Below are positions 4,653-49,858 of a DNA stretch of 64,000 nucleotides, in pieces (position 1 is the stretch's first letter; every line of letters starts with the position of its first letter). The DNA is from Sphingomonas brevis (GTDB lineage: Bacteria > Pseudomonadota > Alphaproteobacteria > Sphingomonadales > Sphingomonadaceae). The notes under the pieces were generated by a model. That model did no database searches, was not told the DNA's origin, and worked only from the letters and a program-made list of their open reading frames with translations. The translations under genes were made by a program, and so were the position numbers. Where the stretch lies: contig NZ_JAMGBB010000001.1 in assembly GCF_023516505.1 (NCBI RefSeq), positions 930,001 to 994,000 on the forward strand, given 5' to 3'.

Positions 4653-5540
4653 TCAGTAATTAAGGCGGCGATTGACCAGATCGTCATAGTCTTTGGCCAT
4701 CTGCCGCGACAGCTCGCCAATCTCGAAGTTCCATGGACCGACCGACTGGATGAAGGTGACCTCGGCGGCCGACCCGGTAATGAACATCTGCTGGAAGCTT
4801 TCGAGCTCGTCCGGCCAGATCGCCCGCTCATTGACTTCAATGCCACGGCGACGCGCAAGATCGATGATCGTACGACGGGTGATCCCGTCAAGAAAGCAAT
4901 CGGGGACGGGAGTGTGAAGCGCACCGTCCCGAACAAAGAAAGCGTTGGCGCCGGTCGCCTCTGCCACCTGGCCGCGCCAATCGAACATCAGGGCGTCGTC
5001 ATAGCCACGCTCGTCCGCGTGCTTTTTGGAGAGCGAGGCAATCATGTAGAGGCCCGCCGCCTTGCTGTGCACAGGCGCGGTATAGGGGGCCGGGCGACGC
5101 CATGGCGCGATGTCCATGCGAAGTCCGCGGGCAGCAATATCGGGCGAATAATATTTGCCCCAATCCCACGCTGCGATCGCCATGTGCGGCTTGGTGCCCT
5201 TTGGCGAAACTCCCATCTTTTCCGAACCCAGCCATGCGACCGGGCGAACATAGGCGTCGGTGAGGCCGTTGGCCTTGACGACTTCGTCGCACGCGGCGTC
5301 AATTTCCTCGACCGTCCAAGGCAGCTCGAAACCCAGCAGTTCGGCCGACTTGCGAAGCCGCGCGCTATGCTCGCTCAGCTTGAAGATTACACCGCCATAG
5401 GCACGTTCGCCTTCGAATACAGATGAGGCATAGTGCAGCGCATGTGTCAGGACATGGACGTTAGCTTCCCGCCACGGGACCATCTTGCCGTCAATCCAGA
5501 TCCACCCGTCGCGGTCGTCGAAGCTGCGCGTTTCGGCCAT
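4653..5540 (-). CDS. ilvE: Branched-chain-amino-acid aminotransferase
   Basis: PLP enzyme of fold type IV that transfers the amino group between glutamate and the keto acids of Leu, Ile and Val. It is 295 residues long, normal for the family. The start GRDGWIWIDGKMVPW-like segment, the HALHYASSVFEGERAY motif, and HSKAAGLYM containing the probable Schiff-base lysine are visible, as are EATGANAFFV and the C-terminal FITGSAAEVTFI. ATG 5540 is preceded by AGAGGA. It is the last gene of the minus-strand run that begins with dxs, 49 bases downstream of proC. Cytoplasmic; the D-amino-acid transaminase branch of the same fold is an alternative, but the substrate-loop sequence fits IlvE better. Confidence 0.92.
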   Translation of the reverse strand: MAETRSFDDRDGWIWIDGKMVPWREANVHVLTHALHYASSVFEGERAYGGVIFKLSEHSARLRKSAELLGFELPWTVEEIDAACDEVVKANGLTDAYVRPVAWLGSEKMGVSPKGTKPHMAIAAWDWGKYYSPDIAARGLRMDIAPWRRPAPYTAPVHSKAAGLYMIASLSKKHADERGYDDALMFDWRGQVAEATGANAFFVRDGALHTPVPDCFLDGITRRTIIDLARRRGIEVNERAIWPDELESFQQMFITGSAAEVTFIQSVGPWNFEIGELSRQMAKDYDDLVNRRLNY

Positions 5541-5589
5541 GTCATCCTCTCTTATCGAGCGCCGCGCCTAGGCTAGCGTCCATGGGCCG

Positions 5590-6393
5590 TCAATTGCGGC
5601 GCGCAGCTTCCTCGGCCAGCTCTTTGCCACGTCGGACAGCGGCGGCCAGCGTGCGATCGACCAGCTGTTGCAATCCATCCGGTGCATCGAGCACGGCAAG
5701 GCCTTGCTCGGTAGTTCCCTTGGGGCTGGCCACCCTGAGAGCAATCTCAGTCATGGATGCGGCGGTCTCGGCAGCATAGGCGCCCGTTCCGACCAACGTC
5801 TGGATGGCAATTTGCTCGGCTTGCTCCGGTCGCAGCCCAAGTGCCTTCCCGCCTTTGCCGAGCGCCTCGATAAAGCGCGCGACATAGGCCATGCCCGCCG
5901 ATGCGACAGCGCCAATCACCCCCAATTCCTCCTCTCGCCGACACACCGCAATCATGCCCAGCGAAGCGATCAACGCGGTGATTTCATCAAAACCGTCATC
6001 CGCGGAATAAATGGCGGTAACGCCCTGGACCTGCGCCACCGGCAGATTGGGCATGATCCGGACGATTGCCCCGGCGTTGGGAAAAAGCTCACGAAGCGTC
6101 GCGGCGGTTACGCCCGCCAACATCGAGACCAGCACTGTTTCCGGTCCAACGTGCGGAGCCAGGCCAGGGGCCACCTCAGCAAGCTTTTGCGGCTTGAACC
6201 CCAACATCACGAAGCGCGGCCGTTCGTCGGGGTAATCGGTGATCGTTCGGATACCCTCGACCGGCGTTCCACTTGGCCGGACCACGGTCACACCGGTAAA
6301 ATCGGCGCCGCCGGCACGCCACCCGTCGACCATCGCCCCGGCCATATTACCGCAGCCGACCAGCCAGGCCGGCACCGGAAACGTCGCCGTCAT
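5590..6393 (-). CDS. proC: Pyrroline-5-carboxylate reductase
   Basis: Catalyses the last step of proline synthesis, NAD(P)H-dependent reduction of pyrroline-5-carboxylate. It is 267 residues long, the usual size. The N-terminal Rossmann motif VGCGNMAGAM binds the nucleotide, and FVMLGFKPQKL follows. RIMPNLPVAQVQGVTA and the C-terminal helical dimerisation region with ASMTEIALRVASPKGTTEQGL carry the family signature. It starts four bases after the ybjN stop, so it is probably translated from the same transcript. Confidence 0.94.
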   Translation of the reverse strand: MTATFPVPAWLVGCGNMAGAMVDGWRAGGADFTGVTVVRPSGTPVEGIRTITDYPDERPRFVMLGFKPQKLAEVAPGLAPHVGPETVLVSMLAGVTAATLRELFPNAGAIVRIMPNLPVAQVQGVTAIYSADDGFDEITALIASLGMIAVCRREEELGVIGAVASAGMAYVARFIEALGKGGKALGLRPEQAEQIAIQTLVGTGAYAAETAASMTEIALRVASPKGTTEQGLAVLDAPDGLQQLVDRTLAAAVRRGKELAEEAARRN

Positions 6394-6397
6394 GACG

Positions 6398-6901
6398 TCA
6401 CGCTTCTCCGGCGGTATCGATAAGGGCAGCGGAAATCGCTTCGGTGGGCGACTTGCCGCCCCACAGGACGAACTGGAACACCGGATAGAAGCGCTCGCAC
6501 TCCTCGATCGCGGCCTCGCTGATCGCCTCGGCCTGCTCGAAGCTCATCGATTCCCCTTCGCCGACCAGTGCAGCGTGGCGGAACACGATCAGGCCCGAGC
6601 CAGACCATAGTTCGAAATGACCGAGCCACAGTTGCTCGTTGATGAGGCCGATCGACTCGTAGATGGCGGCCCGCTTTTCCACCCCGACCTTGATGTCGGG
6701 GAAGGCCAGGAACTGTAAAACCTGGTCTTCCTGCCGCCACACGCCGCGCAGCTCATATTGCGCCCAGCTGCCGGTAGCTGAGGCAATAATTTCACCGTCG
6801 CCGGCCCGCTCACAGGCCCAGCCGCGCGCTTCGAAATATTGTTCCAGCATTTCGATCGGCGCGCCATCATCGCGCTCGTCGGCTTCAGGTTCGTCGGTCA
6901 G
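6398..6901 (-). CDS. YbjN domain-containing protein, probable CTG start
   Basis: A small cytoplasmic protein of the YbjN (putative sensory transduction regulator) family; its molecular role is not established. The conserved core begins MLEQYFEARGW at ATG 6850 and runs to GGKSPTEAI. There is no good ribosome site before that ATG. In frame upstream lies an acidic stretch (TDEPEADERDDGAPIE) reaching a CTG at 6901 that overlaps the stop of the preceding gene as CTGA, with GGGAG seven bases before it. I therefore propose CTG as the start, giving 167 residues; the conservative call is ATG 6850 with 150. It belongs to the dxs-to-ilvE run. Confidence 0.85.
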   Translation of the reverse strand: MTDEPEADERDDGAPIEMLEQYFEARGWACERAGDGEIIASATGSWAQYELRGVWRQEDQVLQFLAFPDIKVGVEKRAAIYESIGLINEQLWLGHFELWSGSGLIVFRHAALVGEGESMSFEQAEAISEAAIEECERFYPVFQFVLWGGKSPTEAISAALIDTAGEA

Positions 6902-7194
6902 GGCTTGGCTCCCGGCTTGGCTGCCTTGCCGGTCTTCTTAGCGGGAGCCGGTTTCGCGGCCAACTCGAGAGCTTCAATCCGCTTCCGGAGCGCTTCATTC
7001 TCGTCGCGCGCGGCAACTGCCATCGCCTTGACCGCGTCGAACTCGTCGCGGCTGACGAAATCCATTCCCCCGACCCACTCGCGCATTTTATCGCGCATCG
7101 ACGCCTCGGCTTCCCGGCCGACGCCGGCCATGGTGCCGGCAACGCCATTCATCATCTTCACCAGATCGTCGAAAATCCGATTTTGCGACTGCAT
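6898..7194 (-). CDS. UbiK/BMFP-type accessory factor
   Basis: A 98-residue protein of the BMFP (YqiC/UbiK) family. In enterobacteria UbiK helps the UbiI/UbiJ-containing complex of ubiquinone synthesis and forms a trimeric coiled coil. The N-terminal amphipathic part MQSQNRIFDDLVKMMNGVAG, the segment VSRDEFDAVKAMA, and the coiled coil ENEALRKRIEALE are the family hallmarks; the tail is Lys/Ala/Pro rich. Its ATG overlaps the tspO stop by one base (TAATG), and its own stop overlaps the proposed CTG start of the ybjN gene. Confidence 0.87.
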   Translation of the reverse strand: MQSQNRIFDDLVKMMNGVAGTMAGVGREAEASMRDKMREWVGGMDFVSRDEFDAVKAMAVAARDENEALRKRIEALELAAKPAPAKKTGKAAKPGAKP

Positions 7195-7724
7195 TATGAC
7201 TTCACTCCCGTGATCCCCAGCGGCGCCGCATCGGCGCCGGGATTCAGCTTGCCGGTCTCATAGTTGAGCGTGGTCGCGAGACACAACCACAGAAGATAGG
7301 GCAACATCAGCCAACCCGCCAACGGATTGAGCCGGCGAAAGTAACGCGCCGCCGCCAGCGCCATCACCAGCATTGTAACGATGATCACAAACGCAACGTC
7401 GATCATATGCATTCCGAAGAACACCGGCGACCAGGCGAAGTTCAGAAGCAGCTGGCCTCCGAACAGCCATAGCGCGTCCCGTCGTTCCTTCGATGGCGGC
7501 TGTTGCAGGACGATCGCCAGGGCAATTCCAAGCAAAGTGTACAGGATCGTCCAGACCACCCCGAACATCCATGCAGGGGGCTGAAACGATGGCTTCGCCA
7601 GCGGTGCATACCAGTCGTTCGAAAAACCGCTGTTCGACCAATAGCCGATCAGGCTGCCGAATATCACGATCGCGGGTACGGCGATCAATGCCTTCTTGAG
7701 TACGCCCTGCGTTGATGCCGTCAT
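7194..7724 (-). CDS. tspO: TspO/MBR family membrane protein
   Basis: A five-helix membrane protein of the TspO/peripheral benzodiazepine receptor family, which binds porphyrins and in alphaproteobacteria affects tetrapyrrole and oxygen-related regulation. It has 176 residues from ATG 7724, which is preceded by AAGGAG, so I reject the in-frame start at 7829. WYAPLAKPSFQPPAWMFGVVWTILY is the characteristic helix I-II region (Trp and Pro rich), and NFAWSPVFF and LPYLLWLCLATTLN are also typical. Its start overlaps the tlyA stop as ATGA. Confidence 0.93.
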   Translation of the reverse strand: MTASTQGVLKKALIAVPAIVIFGSLIGYWSNSGFSNDWYAPLAKPSFQPPAWMFGVVWTILYTLLGIALAIVLQQPPSKERRDALWLFGGQLLLNFAWSPVFFGMHMIDVAFVIIVTMLVMALAAARYFRRLNPLAGWLMLPYLLWLCLATTLNYETGKLNPGADAAPLGITGVKS

Positions 7725-8464
7725 ATTCGCTCCTTTAGTGCGCCCAGCAAGAATTCGACATTGCCTTCCGGGCCGGTGATCGGGCTTTGTTCGACGCCGA
7801 GAACGTTCCAGCCCTTCGAGACGATCCAAGCCGCGGCCTCGTCACAGACGCGCTGGTGAACTGCTTCGTCGCGGACCACGCCGCCCTTTCCCACTTCCTC
7901 TCGGCCCGCTTCGAATTGGGGTTTGACCAAGGCTACCAGCCGAGCGCCGGGCCGCGCCAGGTCGAGTGCACGATCGAGTACCTTGGCCAGGCCGATGAAG
8001 CTGGCATCGCACACGACAATGTCGATCGGGTCCGGGATGATGTCGATTGTGAGATCGCGGGCGTTGGTCTGTTCGTGGACGGCCACTCGGGGGTCGCTAC
8101 GCAGCTTCCAGGCGAGTTGGTTGGTGCCAACGTCGACCGCATAAACCTTGGCGGCGCCGCGACTGAGCAGGACGTCGGTGAAACCGCCGGTCGAGCTACC
8201 CACATCCAGAGCCACGGCGCCGGTCACATCGAATCCGAAATGCGTGAGGCCGTGGTCTAGCTTGATTCCGCCGCGCGACACCCAAGGATGGTCCCGCCCC
8301 TTAAGGATCAGCTCCGCATCTTCGGGAAGCAGGTCGCCCGCCTTGGCTACCCGCCGGTCGCCGGCGAATACATTGCCGGCCAGGATTAGAGCCTGCGCCC
8401 TGGTCCGGCTTTCGGCCAGGCCTCGAGCAACCAGCAACTGGTCAGCCCGAACCTTAGAGGGCAC
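7721..8464 (-). CDS. tlyA: TlyA-family rRNA methyltransferase
   Basis: S4 RNA-binding domain (about residues 1-60, RADQLLVARGLAESRTRAQ) followed by a Rossmann methyltransferase domain with the SAM motif ALDVGSSTGGFTDVLL and the catalytic region DIVVCDASFIGL and LVKPQFEAG. The family 2'-O-methylates rRNA and was formerly called hemolysin A. I place the start at GTG 8464 (VPSKVRADQ), because GGAGGAAC lies about five bases upstream; the in-frame ATG at 8485 would sit inside dgkA and lacks such a site. Length is then 247 residues. The stop overlaps the tspO ATG by four bases. Confidence 0.9.
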   Translation of the reverse strand: MPSKVRADQLLVARGLAESRTRAQALILAGNVFAGDRRVAKAGDLLPEDAELILKGRDHPWVSRGGIKLDHGLTHFGFDVTGAVALDVGSSTGGFTDVLLSRGAAKVYAVDVGTNQLAWKLRSDPRVAVHEQTNARDLTIDIIPDPIDIVVCDASFIGLAKVLDRALDLARPGARLVALVKPQFEAGREEVGKGGVVRDEAVHQRVCDEAAAWIVSKGWNVLGVEQSPITGPEGNVEFLLGALKERI

Positions 8465-48608: not shown

Positions 48609-49259
48609 TCATGCGACCCTGCGCGCCGCCCAGATTACGCGGCCGATGCAGTCGATCTCATCCAGCCCGCAATCCGGAAGATCGATATAGGCCGGATTAT
48701 CGGACTGGACCGTAAGACGGCGGCCCACAGGGTGGATCGCCAGCCGCTTGACCAGCAGTGCCCCGTCGACGCGCAGCACATAAATACCATCGCGCAGCCG
48801 GTCCGGCCCATCGGCGAGATCGACCAAAATATCGTCGCCATCATTCAGTGTCGGCGCCATTGAATCGCCCTCGATGCGAATCACCGACAGGCTGTCCGCC
48901 AAAGATCGGGTCATCGACTTCAGCCAGCGCGGATCAAAGGCGAAATAGGGCCGCACGCTTTCCTCGCCGGAGAGTGCGCCAGGGCCAGTCGACGTCCTTA
49001 CCGCGGTGCGCGGGACTGGAACGAGCTCGCCAAATTCCGCCGCGGGATCGGCCGAAGGGCCACCCAGCATCGACTCGGGAATCCGGAAATGACGCGCCAG
49101 CATCCTGCGCTCATTTTCTCCGAGCTGCTTCGGAGTGCCCTTGCGCAGATATTGCTGAACATATGCCGCATTGCGCCCGATCATGCGCGACAGCGAGGCG
49201 AAATTATCTCCCCGCTCCGCACAAAGCCGTTCCAGCACCTGCCGAGGGGTAGAGTTCAT
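48609..49259 (-). CDS. XRE/S24-type repressor (LexA/CI-like)
   Basis: A 216-residue protein with an N-terminal HTH (about residues 8-60; FASLSRMIGRNAAYVQQYLRKG) and a C-terminal S24/LexA peptidase fold. The catalytic pair is intact: Ser133 in EGDSMAPTLNDGD and Lys171 in ALLVKRLA. Phage CI-like repressors of this fold cleave themselves on RecA activation, but the linker (about residues 70-105) has no Ala-Gly or Cys-Gly site, so cleavage is doubtful. It diverges from two small genes across a palindromic operator and may control both sides. No phage genes are nearby. Confidence 0.88.
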   Translation of the reverse strand: MNSTPRQVLERLCAERGDNFASLSRMIGRNAAYVQQYLRKGTPKQLGENERRMLARHFRIPESMLGGPSADPAAEFGELVPVPRTAVRTSTGPGALSGEESVRPYFAFDPRWLKSMTRSLADSLSVIRIEGDSMAPTLNDGDDILVDLADGPDRLRDGIYVLRVDGALLVKRLAIHPVGRRLTVQSDNPAYIDLPDCGLDEIDCIGRVIWAARRVA

Positions 49260-49275
49260 GCGGTCAGATTAACCA

Positions 49276-49301
49276 TAGGAAAATTCCTAGACAAGTAGGA
49301 A
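49276..49301. promoter_or_regulatory. Candidate operator of the S24 repressor
   Basis: A perfect palindrome TAGGAA, AA, TTCCTA (49276-49289) is followed by a third TAGGAA half-site at 49296, exactly 20 bases from the first and on the same face of the helix. It lies between weak leftward boxes (TTGTCT complement at 49289-49294, TAATCT complement at 49266-49271), so binding would block the repressor's own promoter. Confidence 0.55.
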
Positions 49302-49355
49302 ACTCATTGGAATTGAAGCAGCCGCCGATTCGCCGAACGTTGGGGACAAACAGCC

Positions 49356-49529
49356 GTGCATTTGCTTCGACACGTGGAGAAATATCTAAAGATCAGCAAC
49401 ACGCCAGCGGCCCGCTTCGGCCGCGAGGCAATGGGCGACCCTCGGTTCGTATTCGATTTGCGCAGGGGGCGAGAGCCGCGGCCGCGAACGGTCGCTCGGA
49501 TCCTTGCCTTCCTGGAGACCGGCCAATGA
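49356..49529 (+). CDS. 57-residue HTH-like protein divergent from the S24 repressor
   Basis: A short reading frame starting at GTG 49356 (GGGGA about nine bases upstream) encodes VHLLRHVEKYLKISN then TPAARFGREAMGDPRFVFDL and RRGREPRPRTVARILAFLE. The spacing T-x-x-x-F-G-R-x-A-x-x-D-P-x-F-x-x-D-L-x-x-G-R resembles a minimal XRE/Cro fold, with the second half as a recognition helix and the G-R-E-P turn. I recall similar tiny proteins from Sphingomonads but cannot name a family. Its TGA overlaps the next ATG as ATGA, which supports it being translated. Confidence 0.62.
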   Translation: MHLLRHVEKYLKISNTPAARFGREAMGDPRFVFDLRRGREPRPRTVARILAFLETGQ

Positions 49530-49858
49530 TGAAACTGGCCCTTTCGCCTGCTGCGGCCGGGCTATTGCGCGCCTTGCTGGCCAAGGCCGGCATCAAGCGA
49601 GATAGGATTTTGCTTACTGAATGCCGGTCCACTGATTGGCATTCCCTAACCTTTATTGGAGAACGGCACGAAATCGAGCTGCGGGTAGCTGGGCCGGACG
49701 CCGACCTAATCTGTGAGCGCTTAACCAGGGGCCTCAATGAAGCGGAGTTCGCCATACCGGGCCAGCTTGTCGCCGACATCGGGCTGGAGCGGCCGCCAAG
49801 GCGGAACAGCGACTCATCCGTCAGCCTCTTCATAGAGGCGCTCACCATTGCCGAGTAG
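49526..49858 (+). CDS. Hypothetical protein coupled to the small HTH gene
   Basis: A 110-residue soluble protein starting ATGATG at 49526, overlapping the previous stop by four bases. No domain recognised. MMKLALSPAAAGLLRALLAK is a basic N-terminal helix, and the middle (RILLTECRSTDWHSLTFIGERHEIELRV) looks like a small beta sheet. The tail contains EFAIPGQLVADIGLE. Its coupling to the HTH protein suggests a shared task. The function is unknown. Confidence 0.65.
   Translation: MMKLALSPAAAGLLRALLAKAGIKRDRILLTECRSTDWHSLTFIGERHEIELRVAGPDADLICERLTRGLNEAEFAIPGQLVADIGLERPPRRNSDSSVSLFIEALTIAE

Follow-up and report, generated by a model that had tools for sequence, protein, structure and literature searches.

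Among the closest described counterparts of the locus analyzed here are the CI/Cro regions of lambda-, 434- and P22-type phages. As in these, an S24-type repressor gene and a small Cro-like gene point away from shared operator sites ~20 bp apart, the repressor promoter appears to be autoregulated, and most members have a putatively cleavable linker in the repressor. The linker position occupied by the Ala-Gly pair is the one used by LexA and CI. A further point of reference is the alphaproteobacterial SOS system, in which LexA recognizes the motif GTTC-N7-GTTC (PMC3323433, PMC7987155). The present locus lies in a window of 64,000 nucleotides of the Sphingomonas brevis genome (contig NZ_JAMGBB010000001.1, positions 930,001 to 994,000 of the forward strand), and the following features are referred to throughout, in window coordinates:

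48609-49259, minus strand: S24-type repressor of 216 aa with an N-terminal HTH, a C-terminal S24 domain, a GDSM serine and a VKR lysine
48984-48989, minus strand: Thr91-Gly92 of the repressor, aligned with the Ala-Gly self-cleavage site of its relatives
49266-49271, minus strand: putative -10 of the S24 promoter, TAATCT, 6 nt ahead of the start codon, placed by promoter alignment on the S24 strand
49276-49289: O1, TAGGAA-AA-TTCCTA, putative operator within the spacer of the putative S24 promoter
49286-49299: core CCTA-GACAAG-TAGG, an inverted repeat linking O1 and O2
49289-49294, minus strand: putative -35 of the S24 promoter, TTGTCT, within the core
49296-49301, plus strand: O2, putative TAGGAA half-site, two turns of the helix (20 bp) away from O1 and part of the conserved core
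49327-49331: GANTC (CcrM-type) site in the leader/promoter region of HTH57
49356-49529, plus strand: HTH57, a GTG-started gene of 57 codons for a predicted Cro-like mini HTH protein
49526-49858, plus strand: P110, 110 residues, with a W.S.TF.G.RH core conserved in the family alignment

A first-pass annotation of this DNA had proposed the three genes as a CI/Cro-like switch, and its coordinates, strands, GTG start and stop/start overlap are all accurate. The stop of HTH57 and the start of P110 overlap by 4 bases (ATGA), and 96 bp separate the S24 and HTH57 genes.

Genes of the cassette and their conservation

The repressor matches PF00717 (Peptidase_S24; 2.7e-14) as well as PHROG repressor families, and its gene is kept in 56 of 61 same-genus genomes; the one close relative found among named genomes is a Sphingomonas MAG, with an S24 protein that is 81% identical. 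The GDSM-type serine motif occurs in 53 of 54 compared S24 proteins, and the same number carry Ala-Gly in the linker, the window protein with its Thr-Gly being the sole exception. A second S24-family protein encoded in the same genome (C1:517632), with a LexA-type box nearby, is probably LexA. Relatives of the cassette repressor (47-50% identity) were also observed on large replicons of Sphingomonas and Sphingobium listed as plasmids (NZ_CP047896.1, 79820-80470; NZ_CP081002.1, 1116862-1117518).

The 57-codon frame, which the first-pass annotation had flagged as easily missed, is real, as indicated by its presence in 186 of 200 family genomes and by the pattern of substitutions relative to one relative (L053), where 24 codon changes are synonymous and 7 non-synonymous, and third positions account for 27 of the 37 base changes. 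Neither HTH57 nor P110 matched a family in Pfam, NCBIfam or PHROG, and sequence comparison detected no homology between HTH57 and the HTH domain of the S24 repressor. The AF2 model of HTH57 predicts four helices with high confidence (pLDDT 91), in what would be a Cro/434-repressor-like domain. Its structural neighbours found with Foldseek include HipB, HigA, the 434 repressor and Cro, P22 c2 and DdrO; TM values are mostly 0.6-0.75, with 0.65-0.75 for XRE/Cro proteins, and the E-values are not significant (>0.001). For P110, neither a Pfam nor a PDB relative was found, no known toxin family was matched, and the AF2 model was unusable. HTH57-like domains were additionally seen as tandem pairs within one frame in other alphaproteobacterial families (L149, L152, L156, L164), often next to an S24 repressor.

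The same divergent order of S24 and HTH57-P110, whose occurrence in relatives the first-pass annotation had suggested checking, was encountered in most of the loci read. P110 adjoins HTH57 in most loci, and a recognizable P110 or S24 is missing from some cassettes. The cassette often sits between TamAB and TopIB-MscS in relatives, and its named neighbours in the window are TamA, TamB, DJ-1/PfpI, topoisomerase IB and MscS, with no phage genes beside it, in agreement with the original description. The host cassette is a near-universal chromosomal locus of the Sphingomonadaceae. Two local peculiarities were recorded within the genus: in one locus (L032, genome G198, 5187-8049) ~2.9 kb separates S24 and the operator from HTH57, and in the window a 166-residue protein next to P110 (49902-50399, minus strand; no Pfam or NCBIfam match) has a relative, among the compared loci, only in that same L032.

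Putative operator and promoters, and possible DNA-damage control

Both the O1 palindrome and the third TAGGAA 20 bp further on are present as originally described. Their conservation was assessed in 26 own-genus cassettes fetched by S24 and 24 other-genera cassettes fetched by HTH57, the operator itself not being used for retrieval. Conservation holds for the control region but less well for the palindrome: the strict form TAGGA-4-TCCTA is found in only 4 of 26 own-genus and 13 of 24 other-genera cassettes, while the core CCTAGACnnGTAGG is found in 24 of 26 and 18 of 24, respectively, vastly more often than chance would give (~0 in shuffles). The right region had therefore been noticed, but on this comparison the best conserved element is CCTA-GACAAG-TAGG rather than the O1 palindrome. 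A looser form, TAGG-6-CCTA, occurs in 23 of the 26 own-genus cassettes; in some relatives a third TAGGA-N4-TCCTA site follows ~20 bp past O2. In the orientation of the S24 gene the core reads TTGTCT, and across relatives this is followed by a 17-nt spacer and a TA-rich hexamer that lies near the S24 start codon in the own genus, so that the near-invariant GACAAG is most simply taken as the -35 element of the promoter that drives the repressor gene. The window S24 mRNA is probably leaderless, judging from the position of the putative -10, and the O1/O2 region may well constitute an autoregulated operator.

Within the 2.59 Mb genome no second copy of the palindrome exists, also when 1 mismatch is allowed, and 174 of 200 genomes contain TCCTAGACAAGTAGGA with 2 mismatches or fewer, usually as a single copy. 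The suggestion that TAGGAA palindromes elsewhere might define a regulon is consequently not borne out; with an operator that is essentially single-copy per genome, the switch is local. The GANTC site is present in 27 of 27 own-genus cassettes (7.7 in shuffles) and 44 of 50 other cassettes (17.6 in shuffles), and it lies ~25-34 nt upstream of HTH57 in all of the own-genus cassettes, which hints at a CcrM/GcrA input at the HTH57 promoter.

The possible link to DNA damage was examined by searching for the LexA box as GAAC-N7-GAAC. A box upstream of HTH57 was found in 15 of 24 other-genera cassettes and in none of the 26 own-genus cassettes; the window has only a degenerate GAAC-N7-ACAA, judged by eye. 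In other cassettes the HTH57 gene itself contains a LexA-type box, GAACATTTCATGAAC, with few exceptions at the 3' end of the gene, just ahead of P110 (nt 144-147 of HTH57 in L116-L118, L120, L121, L123, L129-L132, L140 and L141). A promoter box was counted in 17 of 50 cassettes and a box inside HTH57 in 13 of 50, the two are never found together (0 of 50), and their distribution is phylogenetically clustered. The damage link put forward in the first-pass annotation is therefore plausible for relatives (LexA box in 15 of 24, Ala-Gly in 53 of 54) and weak for the window (0 of 26, Thr-Gly). DNA-damage control is likely in the relatives, as far as box and linker sequences can indicate, and has probably been weakened, lost or replaced in the window's species, which lacks the LexA box and has Thr-Gly at the cleavage position. 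The natural variants with and without the LexA box, and with and without the cleavage site, leave the trigger of the switch open to dissection.

Phage relatives and Mu-like insertions

Four viral contigs (L203, L204, L208, L209), distinct from those in which a host cassette has been split, carry an HTH57-type gene behind two to three TAGGA-N4-TCCTA-like sites. In L203 this gene is followed by genes for RusA and a primosomal protein, with an XRE-type regulator opposite, and in L208 it stands opposite a CI-like S24 gene and upstream of a DNA primase gene. These phage genes occupy the cro position alone, with no P110 there; among known phages, HTH57 was found only in Synechococcus phage MinM1, and S24/HTH57 pairs are also present in other alphaproteobacterial families. 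The cro position of the phage genes behind the same type of site supports the CI/Cro-like layout originally proposed, and together with the predicted HTH57 fold it suggests that the cassette works like a CI/Cro region, though in the window outside any phage. With no phage genes alongside it in the window, it does not control phage lytic genes there; the cassette would work like an immunity switch without itself being a phage immunity region.

The operator search of viral contigs also returned, among others, contigs of ~40 kb, and Mu-type transposases were found in 12 of 14 cassette-bearing contigs tested. An interpretation of these as phage-encoded cassettes was rejected, since the junctions are those of host cassettes split by Mu-like prophages, and they were left out of the count of phage homologues. 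A transposase query against 398 family genomes, chosen to escape the bias of the operator search, identified the transposase in six, and in three of these (G026, L272/L273; G123, L274/L278; G713, L275/L279) the prophage lies inside the S24/HTH57 cassette, with the S24 side on one flank and the HTH57/P110 side on the other. The insertion points in these three genomes fall between nt 0 and ~30 of HTH57, with 5-bp duplications GCCAA, ATCGA and TCGAG, and two viral contigs show 5-bp target duplications TTGCT and CAGCG; the G648 insertion has no target duplication, and the junction of G639 is identical to that of G713, the two possibly representing a single lineage. Among viral contigs, cassette insertions were seen in L174, L179, L188, L190 and L198, in HTH57 or P110 and in both orientations, and some contigs are interrupted directly after HTH57 or in early P110. 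By our own arithmetic, random insertion into a 1-kb target would be expected in ~1 in 3,500 cases, so that three of six is far from chance, albeit in a small sample. The cassette S24 is furthermore present on 9 of 29 IMG/VR contigs with this transposase. Some Mu-like prophages thus insert preferentially into this cassette.

The Mu-like phages encode a separate S24 repressor together with a Ner-like gene, and TAGGA-N4-TCCTA palindromes are absent from the kilobase before their transposase genes. Cross-control by the host S24 was rejected on these grounds, and shared immunity accordingly fails to explain the insertion preference. Citromicrobium is a relative of the sphingomonads. In a 2025 study of its Mu-like phage phiA, the insertions of all 24 lysogens fell into a single hypothetical gene of the host, inside a 40-bp zone, while replicative transposition was genome-wide (PMC12486242). 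This one-gene target zone resembles the insertions in the first 30 nt of HTH57, and the phiA target gene goes unnamed in the main text of that study (PMC12486242). The recurrent insertion in HTH57 is a possible explanation of this target bias. We tentatively raise the possibility that a host-owned lysogeny/SOS-type switch has been adopted as the preferred lysogenic locus by a Mu-like clade, either because transposition is guided to an S24- or HTH57-bound operator or because only a disrupted HTH57/P110 allows a lysogen to be stable. If true, a host regulatory switch would set the lysogenic target of a transposable phage, and would do so almost site-specifically.

Proposed mechanism and comparison with known systems

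The interpretation that we favor, with some confidence but well short of certainty, is that the bacterium has here a chromosomal CI/Cro-type switch of its own, local in its action and homologous to the immunity region found in temperate phages of Alphaproteobacteria. An S24 dimer would bind O1 and the adjoining O2 half-site, which coincide with the spacer and the -35 element of the putative S24 promoter and lie upstream of the HTH57-P110 promoter, and would thereby repress both its own gene and the rightward HTH57-P110 operon. In relatives, repression would be lifted by RecA-stimulated cleavage at Ala-Gly together with departure of LexA from its box, allowing HTH57-P110 to be transcribed. HTH57, as a Cro-like mini-repressor, could then occupy the same TAGGA sites and keep S24 off, with P110 as the presumed output of the switch. 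The layout and its conservation, the operators, the promoter geometry, the motif at the cleavage site, the LexA boxes of relatives and the phage homologues are read directly from sequence; that S24 and HTH57 bind DNA, that they act cooperatively, that cleavage and induction take place, and what P110 does, we infer. Movement from phage to host ("domestication") is the likely direction, although the tree does not prove it.

Other explanations share parts of this evidence. HTH57-P110 could be a module of a different kind, for example a DNA-binding partner and an effector in an antitoxin-like arrangement, whose promoter is repressed by S24 with neither operator competition nor a two-state switch. 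The ATGA coupling of a small HTH gene to a partner without a known family, as well as HipB and HigA among the fold neighbours (E >0.001), would fit such a module, but the solitary HTH57-type genes in the phage cro position, behind the same operator type and without P110, would not, and we regard it as a rather unlikely alternative. The use of the same operator type by phages with HTH57-type genes could mean that the main function of the chromosomal repressor is to protect the host by silencing incoming phages with TAGGA-N4-TCCTA operators. This appears improbable, because sphingomonads are only putative hosts of those phages and the Mu-like phages that enter the cassette lack such sites in their own control region.

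A simpler arrangement would be an ordinary autoregulated S24 gene beside an SOS gene pair, with LexA as the real control and S24 setting only its own level. The LexA box that many relatives have at either of two positions and the overlap of O1 by the putative S24 promoter agree with it, but the own genus keeps the operator with 0 of 26 LexA boxes, and we give this arrangement little credence. The phage-type repressor, the cro-like gene and the altered cleavage site of the window copy might also suggest a decaying prophage remnant; this is very improbable and already contradicted by conservation, namely the occurrence in 186 of 200 genomes, the constraint at the protein level, the conserved operator and the frequent synteny with TamAB and TopIB-MscS.

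The chromosomal CI/Cro-type switch that we favor would amount to a phage-style decision switch in almost all of a large family, involving two unnamed protein families and thus an undescribed regulatory decision, and would join CI/Cro logic and LexA control at one promoter. Like the alphaproteobacterial LexA/SOS regulon, the cassette has LexA-type boxes before HTH57 in many other-genera members, but unlike that regulon it is boxless in the own genus and has a dedicated second S24 repressor sharing the promoter. With the temperate phages of Alphaproteobacteria (L203, L204, L208, L209) it has in common the HTH57-type gene in the cro position and the TAGGA-N4-TCCTA sites, and with L208 also a CI-like S24. 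The phage regions differ in that replication genes come after the HTH57-type gene, the Ala-Gly motif is missing from the phage S24 proteins of L208 and L206, and the core GACAAG-TAGG is specific to the host bacterial family. Compared with CI/Cro regions of the lambda, 434 and P22 type, finally, the cassette is chromosomal in nearly all family genomes with phage genes absent alongside, has P110 as its putative output gene and an added LexA box in many relatives, and in the window carries Thr-Gly at the cleavage position.
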